Origin: a virus
Length of the DNA stretch: 64,000 nucleotides
Direction: 5' to 3' (one strand)
IMG/VR virus record: IMGVR_UViG_3300044701_002789
Span: 124,001-188,000 of that record
The notes under the pieces are model-generated. The model was not told the origin of the DNA and did not search any database. It saw only the letters and a list, made by a program, of their open reading frames with translations. This document shows, one piece after another, positions 696 to 44,539 of this stretch; position 1 is the stretch's first letter; every line of letters starts with the position of its first letter. The position numbers and the translations under genes are program-made.

Positions 696-702
696 TATTT
701 AT
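696..702 (-). promoter_or_regulatory. Late promoter motif ATAAATA upstream of gp8
   Basis: The minus strand reads ACATAAATATATAA, 17 nt before the gp8 ATG and overlapping the TAA stop of the giant gene. It matches the T4/cyanophage gp55-type late consensus (TATAAATA). No -35 is expected for this class. Confidence 0.6.
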
Positions 703-3700: not shown

Positions 3701-6700
3701 GCGTAATCTCTATCGCATTTTCGGAGGAAGTATCTGAATTGTTGTATCTATATTCTATTTCTTCGCCAGTAGTGAAGAAATGGTACGACAATAATACAGA
3801 ACTGTCATTAATATTAACGACTTCAGAACTAGATGCATTAAATACCTTCTCAAATATTGTACTTCCTTTATATGTTAGGTTAAATTCTTTTCTAATATCT
3901 AAACTAGTTCCAAAATATTCTCCATATCCAGAACTTAAAGTATAATTATTTAAATCTAAAATATTAGGATTATTATACGCATCATCAAATCTACCAAGAG
4001 ACATTTGGAAGTATGTAACTTTTACGTCAATATTTGGATTTGGAGTAAAAAGTAAATTATATGAATCTGTACCATAAGTATTATCCGCACTATAAACGCC
4101 AATATTTGTATCCGTATTTAATATACCATACTCTGTCACTAAAAGTTCACCACTAATTTCATCTTTTAATGTTATAATTTCGGAAATACTATATTCATTA
4201 TTGGTAAGATCATGAACCAAAGATATGATATATGATGTCTCACAATTATTTGGCATACTTACTGCCACTGAGGGAAAAGGTAAAGAATTTGCTGCAATAA
4301 AAATAGATCCAGATGCTATTGTTCCTTCTCTGAAGTCTAGGTAGGATACAGTATTTGGGGAATCATTTCCTATAGAAATTGCTGATGTGTTAACAACAAA
4401 AGATACTCCAGAACCTACATTTGTTTTTATATCTAATATTAATTCATTATTAGAAATATATGCATTGTAAGTTGCGATACCAACCCCAGAATTTTCTAAT
4501 AACGAAGAAGTATTAAATTGTCCATATTCCAAAACAGAAACATCAACATCATTGTGTAATAGAGTTAGTTCATGAACTTCATAATAGGCATCATTGGGTA
4601 TAGTATCATCATAACTTCTAATATGTACTAATACCTTAGATCCTTTATATGAAGTTGGTATTCCAACAATCTTAGTGGTAACACCATCCGTTACATTTGT
4701 TTGTGTAGTTATTAATGTAGGATCATTTCCGAATGAAGTTTGTCCAATACCAGTGATAGTATTATATAAATCAAAACTTATATAACTTACATCATATGAT
4801 CCAAAATCAAACTTTTTGGGGAAAAATAACAAATTACCAAATGATCCAGACCTTCTAAACTCAAAATATCCAAGATCAGAGATATTTCCTACTACACCAT
4901 ATTGACTCAAATAACCAAATTCATTATTTTGAATTAATGAAACCATTGATGATTGTTTAAAATCTACAAATACCTTATCTCTAATAAAAATAAAATACTT
5001 TTTGTATATATTTTCCAAATCAAAAGAATCAACAACACTGTAAATATCTGATCTTGGATTACTATTGAAAGTGTCCGATAGATCATCTATTACTAGAACT
5101 CTATTTCCAATAGATTCAATATAATCTTGAATAAATTTGCTATTAAAAATTATTTGATCAGTTACTGATTCATTATTAATGGTAATATTATTTTCTTTAA
5201 CCAAATCAAAATCATGATAACAATTTAAATCTACAATTTGGTTAATATGAGAAATGCCCACAAAATCACTTTGGTTTTGTTCAGTTGAAATGCCAGTATA
5301 ATCTGATTTTGAGTCTATAACTAAACTACCAAATTTTTTAAATCCTGATGTGTGATTTAAATTACTTACATATGGATTCCATGTCTCATAATCAATATTT
5401 GATTTTAAGTCATAAGAAAAATATTGATAATAATTACTATCATGTATTCTTTGTGTAGTATTGTTCAAGAATCCAGTTTCCCTTTCCCATCCCTCTTCAC
5501 CCATAAAATTGGAATTTATATTATATACTGAATTAAATGTTGTAACTGATTTAATTTGCGCAACTGAGTTAGACGATGTTCCCTTTAAAATATCACCGGG
5601 GTTAAACTTATCTTTACTGGATATTTTCAATATATTATTGAAAAGATCTATACTCTGTATTTTCCCCTTTGAAGATCCACTTTCAATAGATTCATTAATA
5701 TAAAATTCTTTTTTCTTTGTATTTACTCTAAATGATGGTAAATATTTTTCTGGAATTATTTTACCCGAGGAATTAAATGAATCAAATTGTCCAGGATTAT
5801 CATTACCACTCAAATATTTTGAAATATTATATGTCACAGATCCGCCAGATCCACCAATATTTTTATCAACAGAAGTTATTTCAAATAATTGATAATCATA
5901 ATCAGAAGAATTATATCCTTTACCATCACTACTTATACCAACACTAATATTTTCTATAAAAACTTTATCGCCAATATCAAATGGGAAATCCTGCTCTCTA
6001 CTAAATCCAGGATTTAATATTACAGTTACATTTTTTGTAATGTTATTATAAGAAATGTTTCTTATATCAATACCATTACTATTATTTACTGGTATTATTT
6101 TTGGTATATAATCACTAATGCCTAGTGTATTTTTTATGATAGTTACTTTTCTATTTCTAATATCATAATCTAATTCAAGATCTTCTATAATTTTATTCGT
6201 ATATCCATCAATCAGGATTAATTTTGGAGGTATAGTATAATTTTTACCAGGCAATAAAACTTCCACATTATCTACTAATGAAATATTTTCAACTTCAAAA
6301 AGAAGTGGTTGTATTGAAGTTGGGCGAATTGTAAAATCAGAAGAATAATCAAATGAAACATCTAATTTTTTAGTTTTTAAAATAGAACCTATAGACTTAC
6401 TATTTAATTTTAAAACCGCACCATATCCATTATCGGAAGATATTGATTTTACAAATGGTACGGATTTATAATTAGATCCACCGGAAAATATTTTTATATC
6501 AGATATTTCGCCTGAACAATTTTTAGAATTTGTTGTATAGTAAAGTGATGAATTATTGGTATTATACTCCGATTTTTCTGGATTTCCAATTAAGTTAAAA
6601 TTAAACGATGTTGTAGATATTCCAACTATAGTGTGATTCCCATTCAATAGACTTTCATTGAATGAAATTTTGTTTGCTTCAATAACATCAGTATCGGAAA

Positions 6701-9700
6701 TAATCTCTATATTTTCTTTATCATTGATCTTTAAATTAATTGGTGTTAGATTATAAAAAAGATCACCATCAATATTTTCCGTAGAGTCAATAACTAATCT
6801 TGCATCAGTATCAATGCCAACTTTACCAAATCTTCTAACATTAAAGATTGTATTTTTTTCAGAGGTTTCAAATTCATTGGAAAAATTAGAATCAGTATAT
6901 AATGTAAATTTAAATGCTGAATAGTCAAATGAATTATTTTTAAAGGATAAAGAAGAATCTGATAGATCAAATATAACTTGATTATTTTTAGTTATGTTTA
7001 TTTTTGGATTTATCGGAGATATTGTTCCTGAAGATGAAGACTCTATATTAATGAATGATGGAAAATTTTTAGTTGAATCGTATAATGTAGATGAGAGACC
7101 AATATCATCACTACTTACATTAATTACATAATAAATTTCATTGTTCACCAATCCTAGTGATGGTGAAGATGATGTATAAATTATCTTTTGCCCACTTCTT
7201 AGTCCATGATTTGGCAATCTTATGGTATTATCATCAACATTTACAGCAGACGATAAGAAATTTATAGGATTAATCAATAATCTTCTATTATTTTTATTAT
7301 ATCTTACTTTAAATGTTTCAATGGTCTTTGATTGAATTTTTAAATTTATTTCATCATTTAACAATAAGTTATGACTACCATCTGTAGTAGATGTGACTAT
7401 AGTTTTAGAAACCCTACCTTTGAATATATTTTTATAATTAGTTTTAAAACTATGATTTATACCAGAACCGGAAGAAAGGAAATATAGTGTATTATTATTA
7501 TCAGTAGAAATTCCAATAAGATTTGAACTTATTCTTGAAACATATACCTTAGAATCATTTGGTAGAGAAAATCCATTTATTCCATCTAATGAGACTAATA
7601 TTGAAGATCCATTGTTAGTTGAATAAGTTAATTCATCGCCAGTTTCTAAATTATGCTCCGGCAAATACAATGATTTTGTTGGTATTGAAATAAAAGTTAT
7701 ACCAACACCAGGATTAGAGAAGTATATAGTGCTTGTTATCCCTACTCCAGAAGTAGTTCCAATTCCAATAGTTTCATTTGGATCAAAATATATTTCTTTA
7801 TTGACATCTAAAATGCTTTCTGTAGACAACCCAGATGAATTCAATCTAATTTCAAATTTTCTAGTCTTTTCTGTAAGTATAGATCCAGAAACCGCAGAAT
7901 TAACTCCAACACTATTATCAAATTCCCGAAGAACTTTAATTCTAGAAGAATTTTTATCAATTGCTAATATTTTTACCTTTTCTTGATCAATCTGATATAC
8001 ATCATTTTCTCTTACATTTGGATAGTTGAGATTACCAGATACATTCAAATAAGTTATAATTCCAGTAGTTAGTGTTGATCCAATACCGGTAGTTAATACC
8101 AAATTATTTTGAGTTAATTTTACTAATCCTCTTGCATTAAAGTCATATTTTGAATTAATTGTGACTATATCATTATTAAATAAGTTGTGTGGGGAAGTTG
8201 AAAATGATATAAGTTTTGAATTATTGAATAATATTTCAACATCATCAATAATTTCAGTGGCAGATTCTACCTTTAATAATTTTATACCCTTTATTGAGGA
8301 AACTGAAGCATTAAACCCAAATCCACTAGTATTTGTATCATCTACTATTAGTTTATCTCCAACTTTATAGTCGTAACCGCCAGTAATAATACCAACAGAA
8401 TCTATCTTTCCGCTATTAATTTGCTCAACAATAGAAATTTGTCTTCTATTTTTATCTGAATTTTGTATAAAATTATAATATGTATTTTTATTCAATAATG
8501 AATATGGTTTTGTATTTCTTAACCATTTTTCTTTATTTAAATCAAATTTATTTAAATTTGAATTTATTGAAATATTAAATTTAATAGGATTAGATTTATA
8601 TGTATTACCAATCAAATATGGAAATGCTGGTTTTTTATATTTGTTGAATAGTGATCCTTCTCTGGTCTCAACAAAAGTATTAAAAGTTGAAAAATACGCA
8701 TAAGTTCCATTTGGAAATTCGGGAGTTATGCAATATCTTCCATTATGCTTATCTAAATCACCAGTATTTAAGAATTCGTAATCTTCTATAAAAATTCCCA
8801 ATGGATATAAATCTAAATTCGGTCTATTATCTTTAATCACAAGTTCATATCCAGGTATCATCTGTTTTACAGAACCACCAGTTATAGAGGAATATCCATA
8901 TGGACCATAAATTGGATTTCCATCATATGCCCATCCGATTATAGGGGAATGTGATACAGAATCTGATTCTTTTCCATCAATTAGTTCTAGGTCTTGTGAA
9001 TATATTGTGGATCCATTTATTGTTCTTGTTCCAAATACGGATGATCTAAGTTTTCTTGGTGCATATAGATGTGTATATTCTAAACTAGAATTTTTACCTT
9101 TACCCTCATAAATTACTCCATCATCTGATGTAATAGTATTATTTCTGAATATTCTTTCTACTATATTAATTCTCCAACTTTGAATTGAAGCTTCAAATTT
9201 TGCTCCAATTCCTGGGGGAATTACATCAATTTTTGTTTGGTTATTGTATCCAGCTCCTGAAGATATAATCTTTACTTCAAATAAAACACCAAATTTCACT
9301 ACTGGAGTCAGGATACAACCGGATCCACTTCCAGTTATTTCCAATTTAGGTGTTGAATAATAATTTTTTCCTGGATTTTTTATAATTACATCTACAATTT
9401 TTCCGTCAGAAATTATAGGTTCAACTTGAGCATCAGTTCCAGTTAAAAGTTTAATCTCTGGTTGTTTGGTGTAATTTAAAATCTCATTAGATCCGTAAGA
9501 GTTTCCCCCATCTTCAATAAAAACAGATTCAATTTTTCCACTAAAAATTGGTTGAATTTTAGCCTGATATGTTTGAACTGTTGAATAAGTTCCAACTTTT
9601 CCAGAAATAGTAACTTCAATTTTTGGATAGTTAAAGATATGTTTTCCTGCTCCTTGAGAGCTTAATTTTACATATTGTCTAGTTTCATAATAGAATGAAG

Positions 9701-12700
9701 TTGAAATTCCTAGAGTACTGATACCAATTTGAGATAATTTAAATTCATTATCATTAATTTTAGTGACATAGTAACTTGTAGAACTAGTTAATCCAATTGG
9801 AGATCCTTGAGTTGAATTATATGTAATTATTTCGCCACTTGAATATCCATGATTATTAATTAGTATAGTATCGCTGTATGTATTGATTCCAGTTGGATAA
9901 CAAATTCTTTTTTTGTTTTGATAATTTTTTCCACCATTAACAACTCGTATAGATCCAAGTTTTCTTTTTAAATTTTCTGATGTTAATCTATGATATTTTC
10001 CACCAACATTAGATAGTGGTAATGTGTTTATTCCAGATACAGAATCTTCAAATGATTTGTGTAATTTTATATTTAAATTATCAATAACACTAATATAATA
10101 TATTGAATTAGTAGTTAAACCACTTACTGGAATATTATTCAAAGGTAAATATTTTACTACTTCTCCTGTCCTAAAATTATGATAAGTAGAAAATCCAATG
10201 GTATCTGTTATGACATTAACATTTGAAATGTCAAAATTAACCGAATAATTATAATTTACTAGTTCGGCAACTGCAGATGCTCCAGTTCCGTTTCCTCCGG
10301 CGATTTGTATTTTAGGAACTTCCAAATAATCAAATCCGGGATCAACAATATCAATACGATCCAATGATCCATTAACTGCACAATATGCTTGAGCGCCAAA
10401 TCCAATTGGATCACTAATGATTAAATCTGGTGGATTAATAACATCATAACCACTACCTTCGGATGAAGGAATTATTGATTTTATTTCACCATAAAATATT
10501 TGATCGTTAGATTTATAATTTAATAGTTCAACTCCATTTACTAAAATGCCAATAGTTCCAGGCAAAGTAGTTGAATCGGATTTATCAAAATCTGGAGTTA
10601 TTTTTCTCAGAATATTTTGAGGTTCTAATAGTTTAGTTTCTAAATTTGGAAAATTAAATTTAGTAAATTCTAATTTATTATTTACTACATCTCCACTTAG
10701 TCTCAAGAAGTTTATATTTGTGTAGATATTGTTTCTACTTCTTGATAACTTAATAGTTGTACTATTTACTCGCTTAACAAAATAAATTCCCTTTTCTATA
10801 TTTAATTTATTTGAACCTTCACCCGGTTTATAAATTACGGAATCGCCAGTATAAAAATTATGAGGTCCTATATTAAGTTCTTCAGTATTATTATATGAAC
10901 CAGAAAATACAATAGAATTATCATTTATAGTTAAAGGTTCATAAAGATAATTTGGTAAAGACTGTGAATTTACATATATTTCATTGTTAGCATCTGAATA
11001 TACATTTTGCACATTGGAAGAATATTGATTCAAACTTTTATAGTTTGATGAGTCTACCTTTGATATATTTTTATTTAATATGTATTTTAATGATGGATCT
11101 AATAAATCTTTTATTCTTACTGCTACTGTTTTTTCGTTTATAAAAGAAATAACCAATCCATCAGATTTTTGACCCAATGATGAAGATAATGTAATTGGAT
11201 CGCCTATTTTTAATATATGTTTATCAAATAAAATAACTTCATAATCTTTTTGATTTTCATTATTATCAAGTATTGATACTGAAGATACATCATAAGATAC
11301 TGGAATATTAAAGAACCAGTTTTCTGATCTAACATCATCTAATTCTATACCTAAGGTTTTAACCTCAATTTCATCCCCAATTTTATTGTAATAAGAATTA
11401 TCAATTAAATCTAAATCAGAAATTACACCTACAATTCGTACTGAAATTGTTTCCCCATCAACTATTGAGTATACAAAAGTATTCAATTTTACATCTGTTA
11501 GTAGTGGTATAGATTGTGTTATACCTTCACATTCTAAAAATTGAGTAGATGTTTTTGATTTATATGTGATAATATCACTTGTTTGATTTTCATATTCAAC
11601 TACTAGTTCACCAGATTCTGGGAATCCAATTGTGGAATCTACATCAATATAACTACTGCCTATTTGGGATTCAAAAGTAACTTTTGTTTTAGGGTGAATA
11701 CTAAAATTACCAAAAATTAAATCATAACTATTTTCCTTTGTATTATCTAAACTGATAATATAATAATCTTTACTATCCTTTTGTACTTTTTCTACTTTAG
11801 ATACAATACCTTTTGCAGGATTAATACCTGCAAACTGATCTTGATATAGTGTCCTATTTGCTAATTTTCTTGGATCACCATTGACAGATTCTACTATTAT
11901 ATTCCTAAAGACCCTATACTGTGCGTCTGATGGAATTATCAAATAATCTCTAGGTTTAATAATTTCCACATCAGAACCAAATAATGCTCTGAATAATAAT
12001 TCAAAAGAACAATCTGTTCCTTTTGATGTATAAAACTCCCTAATATTCTTAACAAAAGTAGATTCATTTAAATCCCCAAAAAACTCTATGTTTTGAAATC
12101 CAGGAGCGATTTGGTATTTTATTTTTCTAAAAAACTCTTTTAGGAAAAGTATACTTAGATTTTTAACAATGGAACCAAATATGTGATCATTAGATTCGGA
12201 TTCGCTGAAAGTAAGTTTATCTATTGCATTGATAGATGTATATGAAGTTACACCACTAAATCCCCTTTTGCATCCAATAAATCTACTTCCGACAATTTCA
12301 CATACATATTCAGATTCAAAAGTTTCATCAGAGATAAATGGAATATCAGATAGTATCAATGATAAACCACTTCCAATGGAATCTATTTTTATGATTTTAA
12401 TTATGTTATTGTCTTCATCTTTTATTCTCAACAAACAACCCGCATAGTCGGAAAGAGATCCAATAACATCAATCGGATATACAATATTTGAATTAGTTGG
12501 TATAATGATGTTTATATTTTCTACTTTTTGAAATTCTAATATTTTCTCATAAAAAATTACTTCAGAGTCAATCTGCAACAATCCATTTCTCTTAGGGAAT
12601 CCTTGAATAGATTCAACATATATTTCATCATCAAAAAAAGTAATATCCGTAACTAGATTTGTGCTATCTATCAGATTTGTAATATTATCAATTTGCACAT

Positions 12701-12860
12701 ATTTGTCTATATTTTGTAGAAGATCAAGTGTTTGTCCTTGATTTTCAATAGACTTATAATATTCTTTCAAAAATTCCAATACTAACGGAAATTCTTCTCT
12801 TACATATTCTGGAACTAGATTTTCTAGAATTAGATTGAATTTTACTCTGTTATTAATCAT
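699..12860 (-). CDS. Giant virion protein in the gp7 position (baseplate wedge, YHYH domain, 4053 aa)
   Basis: A single uninterrupted frame of 4053 codons between gp6 (1 nt gap) and gp8, where T4 has gp7 (about 1030 aa). The N-terminus (LENLVPEYVREEFPLVLEFL, then IDKYV and a SKGTDCSFELLFRALFGSDV segment near residue 285) is typical of the large cyanophage wedge proteins. Around residues 1300-1340 the motif GWAYDGNPIYGPYGY is a YHYH-domain signature. The body contains many repeats of the form GxGYxxxPxxxI followed by G-A-x-A-x-A, near residues 790-880, 1080-1180, 2150, 3390-3470 and 3640-3720, which suggests serial beta-rich modules. The role is inferred from synteny: wedge initiator plus extra surface domains, possibly carbohydrate- or metal-binding. 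Codon use is AT-rich like the neighbours. Confidence 0.8.
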   Translation of the reverse strand: MINNRVKFNLILENLVPEYVREEFPLVLEFLKEYYKSIENQGQTLDLLQNIDKYVQIDNITNLIDSTNLVTDITFFDDEIYVESIQGFPKRNGLLQIDSEVIFYEKILEFQKVENINIIIPTNSNIVYPIDVIGSLSDYAGCLLRIKDEDNNIIKIIKIDSIGSGLSLILSDIPFISDETFESEYVCEIVGSRFIGCKRGFSGVTSYTSINAIDKLTFSESESNDHIFGSIVKNLSILFLKEFFRKIKYQIAPGFQNIEFFGDLNESTFVKNIREFYTSKGTDCSFELLFRALFGSDVEIIKPRDYLIIPSDAQYRVFRNIIVESVNGDPRKLANRTLYQDQFAGINPAKGIVSKVEKVQKDSKDYYIISLDNTKENSYDLIFGNFSIHPKTKVTFESQIGSSYIDVDSTIGFPESGELVVEYENQTSDIITYKSKTSTQFLECEGITQSIPLLTDVKLNTFVYSIVDGETISVRIVGVISDLDLIDNSYYNKIGDEIEVKTLGIELDDVRSENWFFNIPVSYDVSSVSILDNNENQKDYEVILFDKHILKIGDPITLSSSLGQKSDGLVISFINEKTVAVRIKDLLDPSLKYILNKNISKVDSSNYKSLNQYSSNVQNVYSDANNEIYVNSQSLPNYLYEPLTINDNSIVFSGSYNNTEELNIGPHNFYTGDSVIYKPGEGSNKLNIEKGIYFVKRVNSTTIKLSRSRNNIYTNINFLRLSGDVVNNKLEFTKFNFPNLETKLLEPQNILRKITPDFDKSDSTTLPGTIGILVNGVELLNYKSNDQIFYGEIKSIIPSSEGSGYDVINPPDLIISDPIGFGAQAYCAVNGSLDRIDIVDPGFDYLEVPKIQIAGGNGTGASAVAELVNYNYSVNFDISNVNVITDTIGFSTYHNFRTGEVVKYLPLNNIPVSGLTTNSIYYISVIDNLNIKLHKSFEDSVSGINTLPLSNVGGKYHRLTSENLKRKLGSIRVVNGGKNYQNKKRICYPTGINTYSDTILINNHGYSSGEIITYNSTQGSPIGLTSSTSYYVTKINDNEFKLSQIGISTLGISTSFYYETRQYVKLSSQGAGKHIFNYPKIEVTISGKVGTYSTVQTYQAKIQPIFSGKIESVFIEDGGNSYGSNEILNYTKQPEIKLLTGTDAQVEPIISDGKIVDVIIKNPGKNYYSTPKLEITGSGSGCILTPVVKFGVLFEVKIISSGAGYNNQTKIDVIPPGIGAKFEASIQSWRINIVERIFRNNTITSDDGVIYEGKGKNSSLEYTHLYAPRKLRSSVFGTRTINGSTIYSQDLELIDGKESDSVSHSPIIGWAYDGNPIYGPYGYSSITGGSVKQMIPGYELVIKDNRPNLDLYPLGIFIEDYEFLNTGDLDKHNGRYCITPEFPNGTYAYFSTFNTFVETREGSLFNKYKKPAFPYLIGNTYKSNPIKFNISINSNLNKFDLNKEKWLRNTKPYSLLNKNTYYNFIQNSDKNRRQISIVEQINSGKIDSVGIITGGYDYKVGDKLIVDDTNTSGFGFNASVSSIKGIKLLKVESATEIIDDVEILFNNSKLISFSTSPHNLFNNDIVTINSKYDFNARGLVKLTQNNLVLTTGIGSTLTTGIITYLNVSGNLNYPNVRENDVYQIDQEKVKILAIDKNSSRIKVLREFDNSVGVNSAVSGSILTEKTRKFEIRLNSSGLSTESILDVNKEIYFDPNETIGIGTTSGVGITSTIYFSNPGVGITFISIPTKSLYLPEHNLETGDELTYSTNNGSSILVSLDGINGFSLPNDSKVYVSRISSNLIGISTDNNNTLYFLSSGSGINHSFKTNYKNIFKGRVSKTIVTSTTDGSHNLLLNDEINLKIQSKTIETFKVRYNKNNRRLLINPINFLSSAVNVDDNTIRLPNHGLRSGQKIIYTSSSPSLGLVNNEIYYVINVSSDDIGLSSTLYDSTKNFPSFINIESSSSGTISPINPKINITKNNQVIFDLSDSSLSFKNNSFDYSAFKFTLYTDSNFSNEFETSEKNTIFNVRRFGKVGIDTDARLVIDSTENIDGDLFYNLTPINLKINDKENIEIISDTDVIEANKISFNESLLNGNHTIVGISTTSFNFNLIGNPEKSEYNTNNSSLYYTTNSKNCSGEISDIKIFSGGSNYKSVPFVKSISSDNGYGAVLKLNSKSIGSILKTKKLDVSFDYSSDFTIRPTSIQPLLFEVENISLVDNVEVLLPGKNYTIPPKLILIDGYTNKIIEDLELDYDIRNRKVTIIKNTLGISDYIPKIIPVNNSNGIDIRNISYNNITKNVTVILNPGFSREQDFPFDIGDKVFIENISVGISSDGKGYNSSDYDYQLFEITSVDKNIGGSGGSVTYNISKYLSGNDNPGQFDSFNSSGKIIPEKYLPSFRVNTKKKEFYINESIESGSSKGKIQSIDLFNNILKISSKDKFNPGDILKGTSSNSVAQIKSVTTFNSVYNINSNFMGEEGWERETGFLNNTTQRIHDSNYYQYFSYDLKSNIDYETWNPYVSNLNHTSGFKKFGSLVIDSKSDYTGISTEQNQSDFVGISHINQIVDLNCYHDFDLVKENNITINNESVTDQIIFNSKFIQDYIESIGNRVLVIDDLSDTFNSNPRSDIYSVVDSFDLENIYKKYFIFIRDKVFVDFKQSSMVSLIQNNEFGYLSQYGVVGNISDLGYFEFRRSGSFGNLLFFPKKFDFGSYDVSYISFDLYNTITGIGQTSFGNDPTLITTQTNVTDGVTTKIVGIPTSYKGSKVLVHIRSYDDTIPNDAYYEVHELTLLHNDVDVSVLEYGQFNTSSLLENSGVGIATYNAYISNNELILDIKTNVGSGVSFVVNTSAISIGNDSPNTVSYLDFREGTIASGSIFIAANSLPFPSVAVSMPNNCETSYIISLVHDLTNNEYSISEIITLKDEISGELLVTEYGILNTDTNIGVYSADNTYGTDSYNLLFTPNPNIDVKVTYFQMSLGRFDDAYNNPNILDLNNYTLSSGYGEYFGTSLDIRKEFNLTYKGSTIFEKVFNASSSEVVNINDSSVLLSYHFFTTGEEIEYRYNNSDTSSENAIEITPTFISGIGVTDKLPTTLYIVKDSDIKVRVSASASQSLQSIPDVLNFTNLGIGTEHKFISKKRNEKSLIAIDNVIQSPIVSTSTTAGLTTSMSRINLYLSVDDSEDLFGGDLIKVNNEIMLIRAVDSPIKNVLLVDRSLLGTGISSHPKNSTVFKVKGNYNIVDNKIYFSEAPFGKVPVSNPNARFDEIDYFGLEISSRFNGRVFLRSGISNSNDDTYINNKIIDDISSEFNTIKSTFELKYDSSNITGISTDNAIVLVNSAVQYPELSYVLTENAGITTIKVNSPESTTYDSRIISLPKGGIILSVGSSEGFGYQPLVSAGGKPVVSSSGTIQSILINNTGSGYRPGIQTSVNVSVLKTDSSDYESEVVGIASIINGEVVSVTITNPGSGYTSTNPPDVVFDPPYSYTDIPLVYSNDSGSIGIGTEATVNIIVGQSSNVVDFEFKNLGYGYKKGDVLTIDIGGQTGIPTTSNFVEFKIFVDSIFSDSFSAWTVGGLQILDSFEDLFDGTRKRFPISIDGNLVSIVSKKGSNIDIQSTLLVFVNDILQVPGEGYVFNGGSIIEFTESPKPEDKCSIIFYTGTSNVDTFNFDILETVKIGDELTINSDDPLYQEKTRIIESITNVDTTKTNFYNDQGIDRESTRFRPVLWCKQTEDKIINGNYVGKDRVYYEPYIYPTTNIIQNVGLGTDIIFVESVKTFFDSEKEYFHNGVNEKPQNKIIIISQDSVTSAAATAIVSSSGTISSIIINDGGIGYSTDPSISISNPIGLGTTGRAQAQSFITNGSVSSVSISTGGFGYDQMQPPEILFESPSPKYEILDNISYEGDFGVITGISTISVGAALTGIVFDLFIPQDSVLRDTDIVKVGIATTGISGIQTGYYFIVKNSNLGNGLKSLDLSGNVLSIGNSFIDNTYQVASVSIAQTSVPGIGITYVAKVIVGVSSYNNLTGLGFSDFYGEYSWGRISSSTEKTENEFISYGYNGISTSPVIQRFNRLKYIGYSTT

Positions 12861-34895: not shown

Positions 34896-35627
34896 TCACT
34901 TCTTTAGAGTTGGCATCAGACGCAGACCATCACGGAAGATGGCATCTTGAACTCTAATGTTGATATTATTCAACATTTGTAGAGTCCATCGAGTATCTGC
35001 AAGAAACATTTTTTCAAGTTCCTCACGAATACGCTCAACAGAGACTTTCATCAACATATCTGCTGCAAAGTCACTATTGATTGCTTCCCAAGTATCTGCA
35101 TCAATATCAAAGTTTTTGGTAACAGCAAACCGAAGTGCTCGCATGACTCTCAAACCATCTTCTTCGATTCGGTCAATAGGATTGCCCACAAACCGAAGAA
35201 TAGCGTCCTGAATATCAGCAAACCCATTGAAAGGATCAATCAGTTTCCCATCCAGAATTGCCATAGCATTGACAGTGAAATCCCGACGTTGAAGATCATC
35301 CATCAGAGTACCAGGAAGTACAAAATCAGGATGCCGACCATCACTACTCGGACCATCTTTCCGAGCAAGTACAAAATCAGCAACATTGGTACGTTGCTTC
35401 AGAGGATGACCGTCAGGAACTTGTGCCCGAACAGTGAAGAACTCAGGAGTTTCCAGGAATACTTTGAACCCCTTTAGTTTCAGATGAATGCAAAGAGTAG
35501 TAAATGCAGCATTTGCATCTACAAAAACACTGGTATCTTCGGGAATCGCAACAAAATCTACATCTTTGGATTCCAGACCAAGAAACTTGTCTCGGACTGC
35601 ACCACCGACTTCTGCGAATTGAAACAT
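34896..35627 (-). CDS. tRNA nucleotidyltransferase / poly(A) polymerase family (CCA-adding type)
   Basis: 243 aa. FAEVGGAVRDKFLGLESKDV followed by DFVAI is the class II nucleotidyltransferase signature (GGxVRD with the catalytic DxD as DVDFV). RRDFTVNAMAI and LIDPFNGFADIQDAILRFVG, then IEEDGLRVMRALRFA, are the following conserved blocks of bacterial CCA-adding enzymes and PcnB. The usual C-terminal body/tail is shortened (bacterial enzymes are ~400 aa). Together with the RNA ligase at 50862 this suggests an RNA end-repair set. It could also use phage tRNAs outside this window. Confidence 0.9.
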   Translation of the reverse strand: MFQFAEVGGAVRDKFLGLESKDVDFVAIPEDTSVFVDANAAFTTLCIHLKLKGFKVFLETPEFFTVRAQVPDGHPLKQRTNVADFVLARKDGPSSDGRHPDFVLPGTLMDDLQRRDFTVNAMAILDGKLIDPFNGFADIQDAILRFVGNPIDRIEEDGLRVMRALRFAVTKNFDIDADTWEAINSDFAADMLMKVSVERIREELEKMFLADTRWTLQMLNNINIRVQDAIFRDGLRLMPTLKK

Positions 35628-37025: not shown

Positions 37026-37838
37026 TTATTTATCAGTGGGGAAAAACTGAAGAGGAGTACCGTTCACGATTAGGATTTTCTGAATACTTCCATTATTGAA
37101 AGCCGCCTTCAAAATCTCATTTCTCTGGTACTCAAGAGATTGTGCCGATACAGTAGATGCAAGTGCTTTATTTTCCTCTGCCTTGAGTTGAGCAGTCTGA
37201 GTTTTAACTTGCTGTTCTTTATTTGCACTCTGAGCAGCAACCACACGATTTACGGCAGCAACCAAGTCTTCGGGTAGGTCTGCTTTCACAACAACCACAG
37301 ATTCAATTTGAATTTTACCTGCAAGATTGTTCTTTTCTAAAGACAGATTCAGGTTATTCTTGATTGTGTCTTGGATCTTATCAAGACTGGAATTTACTTC
37401 CAGTGCAGGATATTCATCGACTGATTGATTCACCGCAGAAGTAATCAAACGCTTAATGAAACTAGACATTAGTTCAATTTGACCATTTTGACTGACTCCA
37501 TGGTTACTCATGTCGTAACCAGTATAAAAGTCATAGAGACTCGTGGGTGACAGACTATAAGTAACAACAACATCCATATCTTTCATAATGGTGTTGTCTT
37601 TGGTTTTAGGGGTCAGGTCATTTGATTGAACTGTAATTTTACGAGTGTTGAAGACCTTAATTGAACCAAATCCATCATATCGGATTCCTGGCTGAATAAT
37701 CTCATTCTTTACCTGGCCATCGAATCCGATGTATAATCCATTCTCCCCAGTATTGACCGTAGTAAATTGACCAGCAGTGAGAATAAGGGCAAGGGCAGCA
37801 GCACCAACACCCAGAGCAATTTTAGGACCAGCAGACAT
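37026..37838 (-). CDS. SPFH / prohibitin-like membrane protein (270 aa)
   Basis: N-terminal membrane anchor (KIALGVGAAALALILTAGQF), then ENGLYIGFDGQVKNEIIQPG and the SPFH/Band 7 core: MKDMDVVVTYSLSPTSLYDF, FIKRLITSAVNQSVDEYPAL and VESVVVVKADLPEDLVAAVN. The C-terminal helix is Ala/Gln/Lys-rich (SANKEQQVKTQTAQLKAEEN) like prohibitins. Phage prohibitin homologues are known in cyanophages but their role is unclear; membrane scaffolding is inferred. It begins a run of membrane-protein genes up to 38424. Confidence 0.9.
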   Translation of the reverse strand: MSAGPKIALGVGAAALALILTAGQFTTVNTGENGLYIGFDGQVKNEIIQPGIRYDGFGSIKVFNTRKITVQSNDLTPKTKDNTIMKDMDVVVTYSLSPTSLYDFYTGYDMSNHGVSQNGQIELMSSFIKRLITSAVNQSVDEYPALEVNSSLDKIQDTIKNNLNLSLEKNNLAGKIQIESVVVVKADLPEDLVAAVNRVVAAQSANKEQQVKTQTAQLKAEENKALASTVSAQSLEYQRNEILKAAFNNGSIQKILIVNGTPLQFFPTDK

Positions 37839-37865: not shown

Positions 37866-38027
37866 TTAATCAGAAGTTAAACCTGCGTAGATAAACGCAA
37901 TGGCAACGAAAAGAAGAAAGACGAGAGGCAGCATCTTCAGGAAGAAGAGTACGGGAAGTCCTCTCAGAAGGAGGATAAAGAGTAGGAGTGCGATTCCTAC
38001 TCCTACTCCGATGATGCGGACGATCAT
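37866..38027 (-). CDS. Small membrane protein (53 aa)
   Basis: ATG 38027 (MIVRIIGVGVGIALLLFILL) to TAA 37866. Two hydrophobic segments separated by a short basic loop. Not matched to a family. Ends 28 nt before the SPFH start. Confidence 0.65.
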   Translation of the reverse strand: MIVRIIGVGVGIALLLFILLLRGLPVLFFLKMLPLVFLLFVAIAFIYAGLTSD

Positions 38028-38032
38028 ATCAT

Positions 38033-38227
38033 TCAATTATAGGTACAAAGTTGTGTCCAGCGACCATACTGAATTCCTTCAGACCATTTACCACCTTGAG
38101 AGATACATGATTCTTTGGATGGAAGAAGAGATTCCCCTTTAATTGCCAGTCCTAGAAGACTAAATGCAATACCAGCAAGAGCAAGTGCAATCATCAACTC
38201 TACGAGTGTAAATCCTTTGGATTTCAT
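38033..38227 (-). CDS. Prepilin-like protein with type IV pilin N-terminus (64 aa)
   Basis: MKSKGFTLVELMIALALAGI is a class III (prepilin) signal: short basic leader, Gly, then FTLVE and a hydrophobic helix. The remainder (SKESCISQGGKWSEGIQYGR, WTQLCTYN) has two Cys 20 residues apart that could form the disulphide seen in pilin C-terminal loops. At 64 aa it is much shorter than a normal minor pilin. Processing would need the host prepilin peptidase PilD. Start overlaps the neighbour by ATGA. Confidence 0.8.
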   Translation of the reverse strand: MKSKGFTLVELMIALALAGIAFSLLGLAIKGESLLPSKESCISQGGKWSEGIQYGRWTQLCTYN

Positions 38228-38424
38228 TTGTTCAGTTCGCTGATGAAGTAAATTCCCAGGAGAACCGCGAGAATGGCAAGAATAATCAGAGCACTAATCC
38301 AAATGGGAGATAGAACCCAGATCCAAGGCCAATTGATATAACCAGTCAGTTTCAGACCAATAAACAGAATGGTGAGAAGACCAGTAAATCCAATACCACT
38401 AGAAGATGAAGAATTGTTAGACAT
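38224..38424 (-). CDS. Two-pass membrane protein (66 aa)
   Basis: MSNNSSSSSGIGFTGLLTIL, FIGLKLTGYINWPWIWVLSP, then a second hydrophobic helix. This S-rich start with GIGFTGLLTxLFIGLKLTG is a widespread tiny phage membrane family (Fragile-X-F-like annotation). Role unknown. Confidence 0.8.
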   Translation of the reverse strand: MSNNSSSSSGIGFTGLLTILFIGLKLTGYINWPWIWVLSPIWISALIILAILAVLLGIYFISELNK

Positions 38425-38892: not shown

Positions 38893-39606
38893 TCAGGAAA
38901 CGGAGGTGGTAAGAGTACGAAGGTTGAAGAACATGCCGCTTTGCTGCGGATTGATCATTTCATCCAGGACGTTCTGGATGACCGACAGAGTGATTGCTGC
39001 CGCCATGAAGTTGGCAGAGATCAGTTGAGGGCGGGAGGGCGCCTGAGTGGCGCATGACCCCTTGTGAGGGACCGAATCTTCTGGGTTCTCAATGTTGGGA
39101 TACACCAGAGAAGGATTCAGACCGATGCTTTGACCACCGACACGTCCGAACCAAAGAGTTTGACCCTTGACAGTTTCAGTACCATCGGAATTGCCTGGAG
39201 TGATGAAGAAGAAGTCTTTATCTTCACAAGCAGAAGAAATAGCAGCGATAATGTCCTTGCGAGTCGCGTCATTGTCAACGGAACACACAATCATAGGGCA
39301 ATTGGACCTACGCAGAAGAGGAATGAAGGATGTCATAGAAATATAATCATCCTTGTAATCAACGTTAGACAGACCCTGGTAACTACAGAAGTCCATCATT
39401 GCTCGCGCTTTGTTGAGTCCAAGTTGCGCTTCGCCAACGATCTGGCGAGTCATGTTGCTTTCCTCAAACTCATCACCATCAATGAACACAACTTTGGCGT
39501 CCTTGGTGGAAGGATGATAGGCAACAAGACGGGCGAGAGGGGAGGAAATGTAACCTCCAGTACCTCCAACACCAATCACGAAAACATAATCAGGAGAAAA
39601 GGTCAT
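38893..39606 (-). CDS. ThiF/E1-like ubiquitin-activating family protein
   Basis: 237 aa. Residues 11-18 IGVGGTGG are the ATP-binding loop. VVFIDGDEFEESNMTRQIVG (residues 39-58) is the E1 block with Asp and Arg finger. NKARAM and SVDNDATR follow. SCATQAP around C185 is the candidate catalytic Cys, after HKGS. The size and layout match the PRTRC-type ThiF protein. It would adenylate the C-terminus of the Ubl at 41865. Its promoter cassette is at 39629. Confidence 0.88.
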   Translation of the reverse strand: MTFSPDYVFVIGVGGTGGYISSPLARLVAYHPSTKDAKVVFIDGDEFEESNMTRQIVGEAQLGLNKARAMMDFCSYQGLSNVDYKDDYISMTSFIPLLRRSNCPMIVCSVDNDATRKDIIAAISSACEDKDFFFITPGNSDGTETVKGQTLWFGRVGGQSIGLNPSLVYPNIENPEDSVPHKGSCATQAPSRPQLISANFMAAAITLSVIQNVLDEMINPQQSGMFFNLRTLTTSVS

Positions 39607-39628
39607 AGGTGGAATTGACTACAGATCA

Positions 39629-39687
39629 ATAATAAGGGATGAGAGGGTGGTTTGGAAAGGATGTGTGTCAGTATCTCAACTGGCACA
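39629..39687 (-). promoter_or_regulatory. Box/-10 cassette for the E1-like gene
   Basis: -10 TATTAT (39629-39634); 29-bp gap without a strong hairpin; box 39664-39687 (TGTGTCAGTA-TCTC-AACTGGCACA) containing the stop of the E2 candidate gene. Confidence 0.7.
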
Positions 39688-40764
39688 CACGAAGGACTCG
39701 TCGAGTTGACCAATCAGATACCCTTCTGTAGAAACATACCACTGACGACCGACAGAATCTTCCATGGTCACGAAACCAAGATAAAGATCATCACCTCGTT
39801 GAATGCTGGAAGTGCGGGCAGGGACGATCATAACGTGCGGAAGTTGGGGGAGAGGTTTAAATCCTGCCATAAGCATGGTGAAGAATGCCTGAACATCCGT
39901 ATCTGCGGAGATCATGATTAGAGTATCATAACCGGCGCAAAGAAAGGTGTCATTCTCCAGTTTTTTAAACGATGTTTTCCTAGAACTGTGTTTACGCATA
40001 TCTTCACAATTGCTTGCAAAAGATTGCAGATTGAGAAGATCGTTATTTGTTTGGGAAGAAAAATAAGAAGTTGAGATCTCACGAAGATTCCTTGGTCGCG
40101 TATAATCATACTGATTATCGCTGGTGGTTACGCTTCCCCAACAAATAGGACCACCAAGATAACTTCCCCATTCACCACCGTAGACATTAGAAACCGAAAG
40201 TTTTTTAGTTGCAACTACTTGATTGTTGTCGTCAACTTTACCGGCACAAAGATATGCTGTGTCGTTAATTTTCTCAAAGAGAAGATCTTTATTATTATGA
40301 GAAATATGACATTCAAAAACCATATTGGAGACGCTCACATAATCGGCATCATTATCACTTTCATCATATACATTGCCCTCTGGACAAGTACCAACCCAGT
40401 GACGAAAGGGCCGCTGCCAACCAGCATAAAAAACGCTACATTCATTGATGTTTGGATCCCTGGCGATTTTTTCATAGGCATTCCAGTTAATATCAATGCC
40501 GTAAGGACCGTCTTCTACAATATCTGGATAAGTATCCATAATATATTGACGACTATTTCTACGACACCCGATACAATTGGATTCATAGAAACAATTGATT
40601 CGCTGAGTCTCACTATTGGCAACTTTGAACCTAGCAAAACCATTAGGCATCCATGCTTTCAGGCGAATCATATCAGGTTGAACCTGATAACTAATAAACT
40701 CAGACTGAGTAGGCAGAGAGTGAATATGAACTTTGGCGGGTTCGGTAGGAAAAATAGCAGACAT
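39676..40764 (-). CDS. Candidate E2-like (UBC-fold) protein, Cys-rich (362 aa)
   Basis: NVYGGEWGSYLGGPICWGSV (residues 194-213) contains a Gly-Pro-Ile-Cys (C208) in the same setting as the G-x-I-C block before the catalytic Cys of bacterial E2-like/PRTRC-B proteins, followed by YFSSQTNNDLL. Earlier Cys-rich ESNCIGCRRN may bind metal. The C-terminal half (LPQLPHVMIVPARTSS, QRGDDLYLGFVTMEDSVGRQ) is a separate module. Assignment as E2 rests on motif and on the position between JAMM and E1 genes. Start overlaps the JAMM stop (TGATG). Confidence 0.6.
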   Translation of the reverse strand: MSAIFPTEPAKVHIHSLPTQSEFISYQVQPDMIRLKAWMPNGFARFKVANSETQRINCFYESNCIGCRRNSRQYIMDTYPDIVEDGPYGIDINWNAYEKIARDPNINECSVFYAGWQRPFRHWVGTCPEGNVYDESDNDADYVSVSNMVFECHISHNNKDLLFEKINDTAYLCAGKVDDNNQVVATKKLSVSNVYGGEWGSYLGGPICWGSVTTSDNQYDYTRPRNLREISTSYFSSQTNNDLLNLQSFASNCEDMRKHSSRKTSFKKLENDTFLCAGYDTLIMISADTDVQAFFTMLMAGFKPLPQLPHVMIVPARTSSIQRGDDLYLGFVTMEDSVGRQWYVSTEGYLIGQLDESFVCAS

Positions 40765-41801
40765 CAGTTCACCTCCATGAGATCAAGTTCAAGTTCCGCT
40801 TCAATGTCGGAACAAATTTGGGTCAGAAGAGTCATCAGATTAGATTTCTCTTCAATGTCGCCACGATTTTGCTTCAGGAAATCAGTGATAGAATCTTCAA
40901 TGTTCCAGAGTTTGACTGTTTTTTTCTGGGCAGATTCAACAGCGTTCCAGTAATCATCAATTGATTCAAACTCAGTCCAATCAACAGAATCCTGATAATG
41001 GAAAGGATCCTTGTAGTTACTTTGAGTGTTCCTGGAAGTGGGAGGATTAAAACGACTGGGCGCCAGGAAATTGTTGGTGCGCTGTTTTTGACCCTGCCAG
41101 GTGTTGATAATTGTAGTAATCTTGGGTTTCTCAACAGTAACGTAACTCAGAACATCTTCATGATACGAAACATCATCAACAGGAGTAGCGTCAATCAGAT
41201 GGTTGTAATTAACTTTGAACCGACGACCACCAGCAACAACAGACGAAGCAATGGCATAAGACCGTTTGGAAATGTTGATAGAACCAACAACAAGGTGAAT
41301 GCCTGGATCGCCAAGTTCGTACTTGTCATCTGTTCCTGAGAAGAATGCTCCCATAGTGTTATGACTATGAGAAGAACCAACAGGAATCCAACCTACAGGA
41401 GGATATTGAGTAATAGGTTCACCCGTTTCAATATCAATTGCTTCATCAAAACTATCTACACGGACAGAAGCACCACTGACTTCTTGACGAGGAACCAGAA
41501 TACGATATTTGGAAGGATCTTCTTCATTGCGAAGAATACGAACCGAAACCTCAAGAGAAGCGGCAACCTTGTCCACATAGTAGAAGCAAAGTTGAACCCA
41601 TCGCTGCCAAAGATCCGCAGGAATCCTATGAATGTTTTCTTTCAGTTCAAAAGTTTTGAGATCATCATTATTGATGATCACATTTGCTTCAGGATCATCA
41701 ATAGGGCGAAGGTATTTGCCCCAACCACCAGTGTAGTATTCAAAACATCCGTCCCGAGGGGTACGAAGAATAGTCGGTTGCTCTTGGATTTCGGTCGTCA
41801 T
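40764..41801 (-). CDS. JAB/JAMM-domain metalloprotease
   Basis: 345 aa. SSHSHNTMGAFFSGTDDKYE gives the JAMM motif H145-x-H147-x7-S155-x2-D158. SLEVSVRI at E84 supplies the usual Glu. GDPGIHLVVGSI then follows, as in JAB folds. The C-terminal ~120 aa is an extension ending in a long helix. In related bacterial systems JAMM proteases trim the Ubl or remove it from targets. The -10-like TACAAT lies only 4 nt before the ATG, so a leaderless transcript or another promoter is needed. Confidence 0.88.
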   Translation of the reverse strand: MTTEIQEQPTILRTPRDGCFEYYTGGWGKYLRPIDDPEANVIINNDDLKTFELKENIHRIPADLWQRWVQLCFYYVDKVAASLEVSVRILRNEEDPSKYRILVPRQEVSGASVRVDSFDEAIDIETGEPITQYPPVGWIPVGSSHSHNTMGAFFSGTDDKYELGDPGIHLVVGSINISKRSYAIASSVVAGGRRFKVNYNHLIDATPVDDVSYHEDVLSYVTVEKPKITTIINTWQGQKQRTNNFLAPSRFNPPTSRNTQSNYKDPFHYQDSVDWTEFESIDDYWNAVESAQKKTVKLWNIEDSITDFLKQNRGDIEEKSNLMTLLTQICSDIEAELELDLMEVN

Positions 41802-41829
41802 GATATTGTAAAGGTCAAGTAGTGGAGTA

Positions 41830-41851
41830 AACCTCCCCCGAAAGGGAGGTT
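41830..41851 (-). terminator. Hairpin between the Ubl and JAMM genes
   Basis: Minus: AACCTCCCTTTCGGGGGAGG TT. Perfect stem, no T-run; may slow or protect rather than stop transcription. Confidence 0.5.
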
Positions 41852-41864
41852 GGGAAAATAGGGA

Positions 41865-42131
41865 TCAGAAACCCTTGTTTTCGGAAGTCACAGCACCACG
41901 AACAGTTTCGCCAGGACGCACGGTGGTTTCGCCAGGAACGATCTCGTTGTTGATCACATAGCGGTTGATGCGAGCAGGATCCACGCCAAGGTTCTCACCG
42001 TACTGGGAGAACAGTTGAGCAACGGTCTTGCCACGGTAGTTGTCGGGAGACACGCTGTAGGTTTCCTCGTTGACCACCAGGGTAACAGGAGCGGAAGCGT
42101 CTTGGGTACGAACGTTGTTGAGGAATTGCAT
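41865..42131 (-). CDS. Ubiquitin-like beta-grasp protein candidate (88 aa)
   Basis: VTLVVNEETYSVSPDNYRGK, TVAQLFSQYGENLGVDPARI, NRYVINNEIVPGETTVRPGE, TVRGAVTSENKGF: the strand-turn-strand-helix-strand order and length (88 aa) fit a Ubl or PRTRC-C-like protein. There is no terminal GG; the C-terminus is KGF, so a trimming step exposing G87 is conceivable. The identification relies on fold-like reading plus the adjacent JAMM, E2-candidate and E1 genes. Confidence 0.65.
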   Translation of the reverse strand: MQFLNNVRTQDASAPVTLVVNEETYSVSPDNYRGKTVAQLFSQYGENLGVDPARINRYVINNEIVPGETTVRPGETVRGAVTSENKGF

Positions 42132-42200
42132 AATAAAAAAGGAAATGAAATGTAAAGGACAGGTGTTTGTCGGTTTGGTGTTTCCCTCACCGACCCCTTA

Positions 42201-42258
42201 AGAATACCACGGAATCCGCTGGGATGTCGTGGAGTGTGCCAGTCTTGTGATTGGCACT
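42201..42258 (-). promoter_or_regulatory. Box/-10 cassette for the Ubl gene
   Basis: -10 TATTCT (42201-42206); 28-bp gap; box 42235-42258 (TGTGCCAGTC-TTGT-GATTGGCACT), a near-perfect dyad. The stretch 42259-42345 holds no gene. Confidence 0.7.
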
Positions 42259-42345
42259 TGGGGCGGCGGTGGGGGTGCGTCCCTTGCCGATGAGATAAAT
42301 GTACCCCATGCTGCTGGGGTCATGCCTGTTCAGTAGACAGTCAGA

Positions 42346-42558
42346 TCATTGTCCCAGTGCTCTGGGTATTCCAAACACAATAAAGAAAGATAGCAACGCC
42401 ACAATGTCCCAGCAGCGATTCTTTATCATGTAGGGCATCGCCAATGAGTTTCCTATCAAGTATAATCTTGCTCCTACTACTCCATCATAATAAAGTGTGA
42501 TGATGTACGCTACGCAAATTACTAGACTTGAGATCATTCGGAGTAGATTAGTGTTCAT
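42346..42558 (-). CDS. Small membrane protein (70 aa)
   Basis: MNTNLLRMISSLVICVAYII, GVVGARLYLIGNSLAMPYMI, then DIVALLSFFIVFGIPRALGQ. Two or three hydrophobic helices. Unknown family. Confidence 0.7.
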   Translation of the reverse strand: MNTNLLRMISSLVICVAYIITLYYDGVVGARLYLIGNSLAMPYMIKNRCWDIVALLSFFIVFGIPRALGQ

Positions 42559-42583
42559 ATAACATACTATTAATTACTTGTCG

Positions 42584-44539
42584 TTAATCGCCCACAATAA
42601 TAAATGGCGCGATAACAAATTTTGATATTGCATTTTTTGTGAATTTTTGTTTCTTAATTTTATCATATAAATCTGGATCAAATAATTTTCCACCTTTTTT
42701 GGACACTAATCCATATATTGTTAAAACTATTTGTTTTTTTAATATTTCATTTAAAAGATTTGGTCCACCCTTAACAAACATATAAAATGCTTGAAGTTTT
42801 GAATACTTTTCCTCTAAGTATTTAATGGTTTTGTTTTCACTTCCTTTAATTTTACTCAAATCTTTAGCGGAAAGTATGTTAGTTACATATGGATCTAATA
42901 TGAATAATTTTATTTTATCTTTTGATCCTTTTTCTATGGGTTGTGTTAATGTTATTGTTTTGTTTTTGGTATCTATTGATTCAATTTTTGTACCAGTTTT
43001 AAGTTTAGCAGCGCCAGAAATAGCAAATACATAGTGCCCTTTTTTTATCTTTTTATCTATTTGACTTCCTGAAGTGAGAACATAGGGAAGAATCTTATCT
43101 CCTTTTTTTGTTGCAATTTCTACTCTAAGAGGAACTGCAATTTGATTCCTTTTTAAATTGGTAGTTATTGCTTTCACTTTTTCCCATACAAGACCTTCGG
43201 CATCATCCCATTTCATAATATATCGGTCAAGTTCAACTTTTGTTGTCAGTTTCAATGTTTCTTGTGAAGTTATTCCATATAGTTCTTTTATTCCTCTAAA
43301 GTCCTTAGATAATATTTGTATAGATTTTACCAAAAAATGTATATATTGATTGGTTGTTAATAAAGATTCGCGGATTGCACTAAGATCTTTGGTTTTATAA
43401 ATTAATTCATTTTTTGATAAAATATTGTTTACTTCATTAGGAATATCTGAAGATATATTTTTATATGCATCTATTCTCTTATCTATTACTTCTTTAAATA
43501 TTGGTTTATATTGTTGATAATTTTCTAAAATTTGATGCACGCCATTCGTATTGAGACCCCCAGACCATGCAGTTCCTCCGATCTTTTGCATATTAAATGT
43601 ATCACCTGGAGTGTCTAATTTCCATTTTTCAATTCCACCACCTTCAATATCCACTCCTTCATAATTTAAGTGGAATATTAGATTTGGTTGCAAAACTTCA
43701 TCTTTGTAATTCAGTTTTTTAATATCAACTAGGTCTTCAATAAATTTCATTATTTTTGCTCTATTTCCTTCCTGCAAAACATTATCAAAAGCAAACACAA
43801 ATTTGGTATATGGATCAATGTCCATTTTATTGGATTCATAATTCATCATTGTACCCACAATTTTATATCCTATACCGATTGGTGAAGCTTTTGATATATT
43901 TTTATATTGTTCGTCTATTTTTAGACTAGCAGTACCAGATTTTTTTAGTGAAATTTGAAATAATTTTTTTCTAATAAAAAATCTGTTTATAATAGATTTA
44001 TATGTATTTTTGTTAGTAGTGTAGTTAGCAACTATATTCGCCTTTTTACTAATTATATGTGTCCCTAATTCTTTTCTGATATTGTTTTCTTGATTTTTAT
44101 CTACTATCCATATATCAGATGGGTTATATACATCAGGTTTATCTGAAATATTTTTTGTTTCTAGTGCAGTTACGATTTTCTTAATACAATCGTCTTTTAT
44201 AAGTTTACCAAATTTAGACTTTTGATGATGTATTTCAAAGTTTTTGTTTAATTTTAATTTTTGTATTAAAAATCTTGCAATATCTATTGAAGATCTAACC
44301 CAACTAACACCAGAAGGTTTTGATGTGTGAAATACGCCCAAATTTGTTTTAATATCATATTCCCCATGAACAGATTTCAAAATACTGTCCGGATCCTCTC
44401 CGTCAGCGAAGTTTTCTATATATGCAAAAAAATCTTTATTTTTAGCATTACTTTTATGAATAAAAAAACTAAGAGCAGCACATTGTAGTATTTCTTGATT
44501 AAAAGTATTTGTTGTGTAATTTTCTTTCAGTTTTGCCAT
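42584..44539 (-). CDS. Large AT-rich protein with nuclease-like motif (651 aa)
   Basis: Residues ~138-150 VYNPSDIWIV followed ~45 residues later by KKLFQISLKKSGTASL give a D-x-x-x ... x-x-K-K layout seen in PD-(D/E)xK-type nucleases. The rest is lysine-rich and unlike known domains. It has a late promoter and is very AT-rich, like the structural block, so a virion or head-associated role is possible. Function is unresolved. Confidence 0.65.
   Translation of the reverse strand: MAKLKENYTTNTFNQEILQCAALSFFIHKSNAKNKDFFAYIENFADGEDPDSILKSVHGEYDIKTNLGVFHTSKPSGVSWVRSSIDIARFLIQKLKLNKNFEIHHQKSKFGKLIKDDCIKKIVTALETKNISDKPDVYNPSDIWIVDKNQENNIRKELGTHIISKKANIVANYTTNKNTYKSIINRFFIRKKLFQISLKKSGTASLKIDEQYKNISKASPIGIGYKIVGTMMNYESNKMDIDPYTKFVFAFDNVLQEGNRAKIMKFIEDLVDIKKLNYKDEVLQPNLIFHLNYEGVDIEGGGIEKWKLDTPGDTFNMQKIGGTAWSGGLNTNGVHQILENYQQYKPIFKEVIDKRIDAYKNISSDIPNEVNNILSKNELIYKTKDLSAIRESLLTTNQYIHFLVKSIQILSKDFRGIKELYGITSQETLKLTTKVELDRYIMKWDDAEGLVWEKVKAITTNLKRNQIAVPLRVEIATKKGDKILPYVLTSGSQIDKKIKKGHYVFAISGAAKLKTGTKIESIDTKNKTITLTQPIEKGSKDKIKLFILDPYVTNILSAKDLSKIKGSENKTIKYLEEKYSKLQAFYMFVKGGPNLLNEILKKQIVLTIYGLVSKKGGKLFDPDLYDKIKKQKFTKNAISKFVIAPFIIVGD

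Follow-up and report, generated by a model that had tools for sequence, protein, structure and literature searches.

Background

Known phage proteins that interfere with pilus assembly in the host include DMS3 Aqs1 and D3112 Gp05 (Tip). Both block the assembly of type IV pili (T4P) by inactivating the PilB ATPase (PMC11436027); host pilus assembly is also the target proposed below for a short prepilin-like protein of a cyanophage but, unlike the latter, Gp05 and Aqs1 are not described as prepilin mimics. Prepilin signals of phages have previously been noted singly. In a 2006 table of T4-like phages ORF097c of Aeromonas phage 44RR, which carries an N-methylation motif, adjoins the SPFH ORF098c (PMC1524935), and the available passages of that article hold no comment on the pairing. 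The sequence of phage 44RR2.8t (Biquartavirus) confirms a 72-aa prepilin-like protein with a Cys pair, encoded directly beside an SPFH gene. Counterparts of this pair are found in phages 25, avDM2 and AS4, with phage 31 also grouped among the relatives. Other short phage proteins with a prepilin signal (mini-prepilins) are collected in phrog_13280 (the 66-aa protein of KVP40) and in PHROGs 10597 and 11263. An account of short phage prepilins as a recurrent, SPFH-paired class was not found in a literature search that covered few subscription journals, and the same search gave no publication devoted to prepilins of cyanophages or to the SPFH proteins of phages.

Here we describe a mini-prepilin locus in a stretch of 64,000 nucleotides (the window), positions 124,001 to 188,000 of the IMG/VR virus record IMGVR_UViG_3300044701_002789. 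The locus resembles that of 44RR2.8t in coupling a mini-prepilin that bears a Cys pair with an SPFH gene; however, the C-termini of the two mini-prepilins are unrelated, the SPFH proteins are about 15% identical, and the SPFH gene lies upstream of the mini-prepilin in 44RR2.8t and downstream of it in the window. The protein encoded by KVP40 and those of the other short PHROGs share the signal and the length class with the window protein but not its C-terminus. In KVP40 the SPFH gene is far from the mini-prepilin (18 kb vs 195 kb in the record), whereas in the window it is close by.

Results

The source record has 258,362 bp. Its major capsid protein (gp23) shares about 73% identity with the Synechococcus phage counterparts, and a photosystem reaction-centre protein (Photo_RC, psbA/psbD type) is encoded as well. 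Because of these two genes the virus is classified, from its sequence, as a T4-like cyanophage, and the host can be placed, by the same reasoning, only as a cyanobacterium. The prepilin-peptidase N-domain (PF06750) and the T4P/T2S ATPase (PF00437) were not found in the phage record by a search that recovers both in the Synechococcus elongatus control, so any processing of a phage prepilin would use host enzymes. T4P are present in freshwater cyanobacteria and in about a quarter of picocyanobacteria, and the PilA of T4P in such hosts can carry GFTLxE (PMC7994388). Elsewhere in the window a single 4053-aa ORF (699-12860, minus strand) stands beside other very long ORFs in what is likely a structural region, and a tRNA nucleotidyltransferase/poly(A) polymerase head domain is encoded at 34896-35627 (minus strand; PF01743, E=1.6e-17).

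The mini-prepilin gene (38033-38227, minus strand) is an ORF with an ATG start; its 64-aa product begins MKSKGFTLVELMIALALAGI and has the sequence MKSKGFTLVELMIALALAGIAFSLLGLAIKGESLLPSKESCISQGGKWSEGIQYGRWTQLCTYN. No second prepilin-like ORF was found in the source record. Its signal, MKSKGFTLVEL, scores 33.3 bits (E=3e-8) with Pfam N_methyl (PF07963; gathering cut-off 21.2) and 29.8 bits with NCBIfam TIGR02532 (IV_pilin_GFxxxE; cut-off 16.3), and since both curated cut-offs are exceeded the signal is not a chance resemblance. All elements of a class III signal are present: G/A at -1, a hydrophobic residue of the F type at +1, E at +5 and a hydrophobic helix. The GFTLVE stretch (38198-38215, minus strand) is the predicted prepilin-peptidase site, with cleavage expected after G5, which makes F +1 and E +5. 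The sequence-only reading of this ORF as a phage-encoded, prepilin-like protein with a class III signal is thereby borne out.

Beyond the signal the likeness to pilins ends. The Pfam match is confined to an N-terminal domain of ~24 residues, none of the full pilin or pseudopilin family models reaches its cut-off (GspH 24.7 bits vs 80, ComGE 18.8 vs 49), and a Pfam search with the C-terminus alone gave no match. The AlphaFold model (26 input sequences; mean pLDDT 75.9, pTM 0.36) predicts a membrane helix at residues 8-29 (38141-38206, minus strand), a short helix at 38-43 and a single two-strand hairpin (47-53/56-62), which falls in the conserved C-terminal segment between C41 and C61 (38045-38107, minus strand), a Cys pair that may form a disulfide. 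The globular beta-sheet head of type IV pilins and pseudopilins is absent from the model, and Foldseek against the PDB returned no match at E <= 0.001 and no pilin among the matches listed. As modelled, the protein is a prepilin N-terminus followed by a small Cys-bracketed hairpin and not a full pilin; it represents a new family inside a known kind, the phage prepilin-like proteins. The view that it is too short for a typical pilin was fair, yet many such short prepilins occur in phages. The Cys pair near the C-terminus is there as first noticed, but its comparison with minor pilin loops is weakened by the simple modelled architecture and by the outcome of the fold search.

With the mini-prepilin, its SPFH neighbour and an alignment as queries, IMG/VR yielded ~40 related loci, all on environmental viral contigs, with 27 distinct intact proteins. 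Homologues with the full signal, which the sequence-only reading had suggested searching for, were thus obtained: G is present at -1 in 25/27, F or Y at +1 and T at +2 in 27/27, and E at +5 in 26/27. Homologues lacking the cleavage site, which that reading would have taken as evidence against it, are few, namely L120/L079, whose KEFTSTKL sequence lacks both G-1 and E+5 although the hairpin is kept, and L093 with S at -1. Some other copies are truncated or frameshifted (L121, L122, L064). C41 and C61 are invariant among the 27 distinct relatives, and this pair, near-invariant in the family, sits around GGKWSEGIQYGRxTQLCTYN. The pN/pS ratio is 0.47 for the signal, 0.92 for the fast-evolving helix (residues 14-30) and 0.22 for residues 41-64, the last 24 residues having many synonymous changes (pS ~0.5), so that conservation in the protein is highest in the C-terminal hairpin, above that of the signal. 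The retention of the cleavage-site residues while the helix drifts suggests that the protein continues to pass through the host prepilin pathway. The C-terminus had no significant isolate relative in 50,697 phage records. As to a cellular source, one scan of genome contigs gave just a 9-residue match on a Woesearchaeota contig, which was dismissed as chance. Tandem 11-residue repeats were seen in the prepilin helix of otherwise unrelated mini-prepilins (ELLICCAIGGI x2, ELLITLVIAAI x3; L006 5998-6222, L228, L210).

The genes around the mini-prepilin encode, as the sequence-only reading had it, small membrane proteins and an SPFH protein. Directly upstream lies the gene of a 66-aa membrane protein (phrog_1374; 38224-38424, minus strand), the stop codon of which overlaps the mini-prepilin start (ATGA). 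Downstream are a small membrane protein (37866-38036, minus strand; probable start at 38027, giving 53 aa, MIVRIIG...), which is conserved along with the SPFH gene, and the 270-aa SPFH/Band_7 protein itself (37026-37838, minus strand; PF01145 E=2.6e-19, phrog_200 E=2e-24). An SPFH-type gene is found up to about 2.3 kb downstream of the mini-prepilin in 38/42 family loci, a count that includes some near-identical contigs. It takes two forms, either the full SPFH gene with the 53-aa membrane protein or, in its place beside the mini-prepilin, a 135-aa protein (L005 6204-6611 and about 24 related loci; phrog_11227, labelled protease) that matches just the C-terminal part of the phrog_200 SPFH protein and is without the Band_7 domain. 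The directly upstream gene varies among the family loci, its product being a lipoprotein or one of two types of membrane protein, but the overlapping start recurs. In the isolated cyanophages S-CREM1 and B23 the SPFH gene is preceded by a small membrane protein gene and has no mini-prepilin nearby; the mini-prepilin is therefore an accessory part. Further along the window, 38893-44539 (minus strand) holds a ubiquitin-like cassette resembling PRTRC, with ThiF/E1-like (38893-39606, minus strand; PRTRC_ThiF E=1.6e-12, short of its cut-off), JAB-like (40764-41801, minus strand; PRTRC_A E=3e-5) and ThiS/Ubl-like (41865-42131, minus strand; E=0.006) genes and with uncharacterized 362-aa and 651-aa proteins.

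The association with SPFH genes was also examined outside the window family, in loci sampled from IMG/VR with DNA patterns that matched only the prepilin signal, so that SPFH played no part in their selection. A Band_7/SPFH gene lies within 1.5 kb of 16/51 distinct mini-prepilins (<=95 aa) and of 1/36 long prepilins (>110 aa; Fisher p=0.0007), as detected with an HMM seeded partly with partners of mini-prepilins, a bias limited by Pfam confirmation: ten partners in other phages exceed the Pfam Band_7 cut-off. When only complete flanks are counted, the figures are 12/29 and 1/18 (p=0.008), and by length of DNA there were 16 SPFH matches in 140 kb around mini-prepilins against 1 in the remaining 320 kb. 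The partner is on the same strand in 16/16 pairs and upstream of the mini-prepilin in 15/16. Partner SPFH proteins form at least 7 groups at or below about 27% pairwise identity, but about ten of those sampled are mutually related at 33-58% identity, which brings the effective sample below 16. About two thirds of the sampled mini-prepilins have no adjacent SPFH gene, many of their contigs have none at all, and in several mini-prepilin phages (KVP40, Aeh1 and others) it is located elsewhere. An additional small pattern scan gave five stretches, two on window-family contigs, two with longer prepilins and one with an 80-aa mini-prepilin on a contig without an SPFH gene. The pairing is frequent and not obligatory.

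The C-termini of mini-prepilins from unrelated phages differ. Two or more Cys after residue 28 are nevertheless found in 24/37 non-family mini-prepilins of 45-110 aa, against 6 expected, which suits a putative short periplasmic disulfide loop. The smallest representatives (27-32 aa; L245, L247, L249 from Aeh1, L165, L201, L213 and L216) consist of signal and helix only, and that of L216 adjoins an SPFH gene. In Salmonella phage S8 (L262 1867-3184) an SPFH gene adjoins an annotated superinfection exclusion gene, and likewise in phage SH19 (PMC3220722).

Discussion

The sequence-only reading gave the SPFH neighbour no more than a mention. The recurrence of SPFH genes beside unrelated mini-prepilins is the stronger clue to function, and a simple decoy fails to explain it. 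Occupation of host pilus machinery or decoy action, as that reading proposed, is nonetheless compatible with the sequence data and gives the leading mechanism: the mini-prepilin may mimic a substrate of the host prepilin pathway and, together with the SPFH protein, inhibit or re-purpose the pilus, secretion or competence machinery of the inner membrane. We regard this as quite possible, though short of probable. Judging by its signal, the precursor would insert into the inner membrane N-in/C-out, like a prepilin. Host prepilin peptidase would then cut after G5 and may methylate F+1, as the conservation of G-1, F/Y+1, T+2 and E+5 suggests. The mature 59-mer, headless and made of the helix and the Cys-bracketed periplasmic hairpin, could engage pilins or the assembly platform while offering no support to a filament. 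The SPFH protein, to go by the gene association, might concentrate, protect or sequester the mini-prepilin or the bound machinery in a membrane microdomain. In the course of infection the pilus or competence apparatus of the host would in this way be lost or re-purposed, a change that could, for instance, counter superinfection or DNA uptake. The lack of a head speaks against ordinary pilus building, and the SPFH partner points to a scaffolded patch of the inner membrane as the site of action.

Several observations do not sit easily with the substrate mimic. The hairpin, the most conserved part, would be superfluous in a simple plug, L120/L079 kept it after the loss of G-1 and E+5, and mini-prepilins and SPFH genes (as in S-CREM1 and B23) each occur without the other nearby. 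The first two of these, and the pairing of phrog_200 SPFH proteins with mini-prepilins across unrelated phages, speak instead for the main rival, a pilus-independent SPFH adaptor. On that explanation a phage SPFH complex, either a microdomain or a regulator of an FtsH-type protease, has the mini-prepilin as a small membrane client or subunit; the prepilin-like N-terminus serves only for insertion and helix packing, and the hairpin faces the periplasm. It is somewhat less likely than the substrate mimic and leaves unexplained both the retention of G-1 and E+5 in 25-26/27 relatives and the signal-plus-helix peptides of 27-32 aa.

Those peptides, found in other phages, would fit a protein that jams membrane biogenesis: unprocessed or excess mini-prepilin would crowd the translocon-rich membrane or the prepilin peptidase and lower host membrane-protein synthesis, with the SPFH protein tempering or directing the effect. 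A precedent exists in Synechocystis lacking PilD, where the build-up of PilA1 prepilin went along with SecY and YidC degradation and with a loss of PSII synthesis (PMC8546353). That effect, however, arises only where the host lacks the peptidase and prepilin is abundant, its authors later doubted the translocon-interaction step (PMC8546353), and the conserved hairpin would be superfluous, so that we consider jamming improbable. Still a little less probable is a minor pilin that joins host T4P and alters the properties of the filament during infection rather than blocking it. The conserved F+1 and E+5 and a Cys-bracketed C-terminal hairpin recall pilins, but a mature protein of 59 aa is almost headless, the fold search gave no pilin-like match, and an altered pilus is of no obvious use to lytic cyanophages. 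A captured pilin N-terminus retained as an inert passenger might account for the small size, the absence from some SPFH-bearing relatives and the truncated or frameshifted copies; the low pN/pS (0.22) and numerous synonymous changes of residues 41-64, together with the 27 distinct intact relatives, make it very improbable.

Conclusions

Short phage prepilins as a recurrent, SPFH-paired class appear new relative to the literature searched. More generally, phages of very different hosts might carry a dedicated two-gene envelope module, in which an SPFH scaffold and a mini-prepilin admitted to the host prepilin pathway seize or disable the T4P, type II secretion or competence machinery of the inner membrane, a proposal that we hold to be less likely than the substrate mimicry taken by itself. 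Should host pili prove to be the target of the pair, phages would have in it a general tool against a widespread surface machine, and their SPFH proteins (phrog_200) would gain a first testable role. If not, phage SPFH proteins would have a partner that takes the prepilin route to ends other than pili. Either way, a 64-residue protein and one neighbour make a small, testable system.
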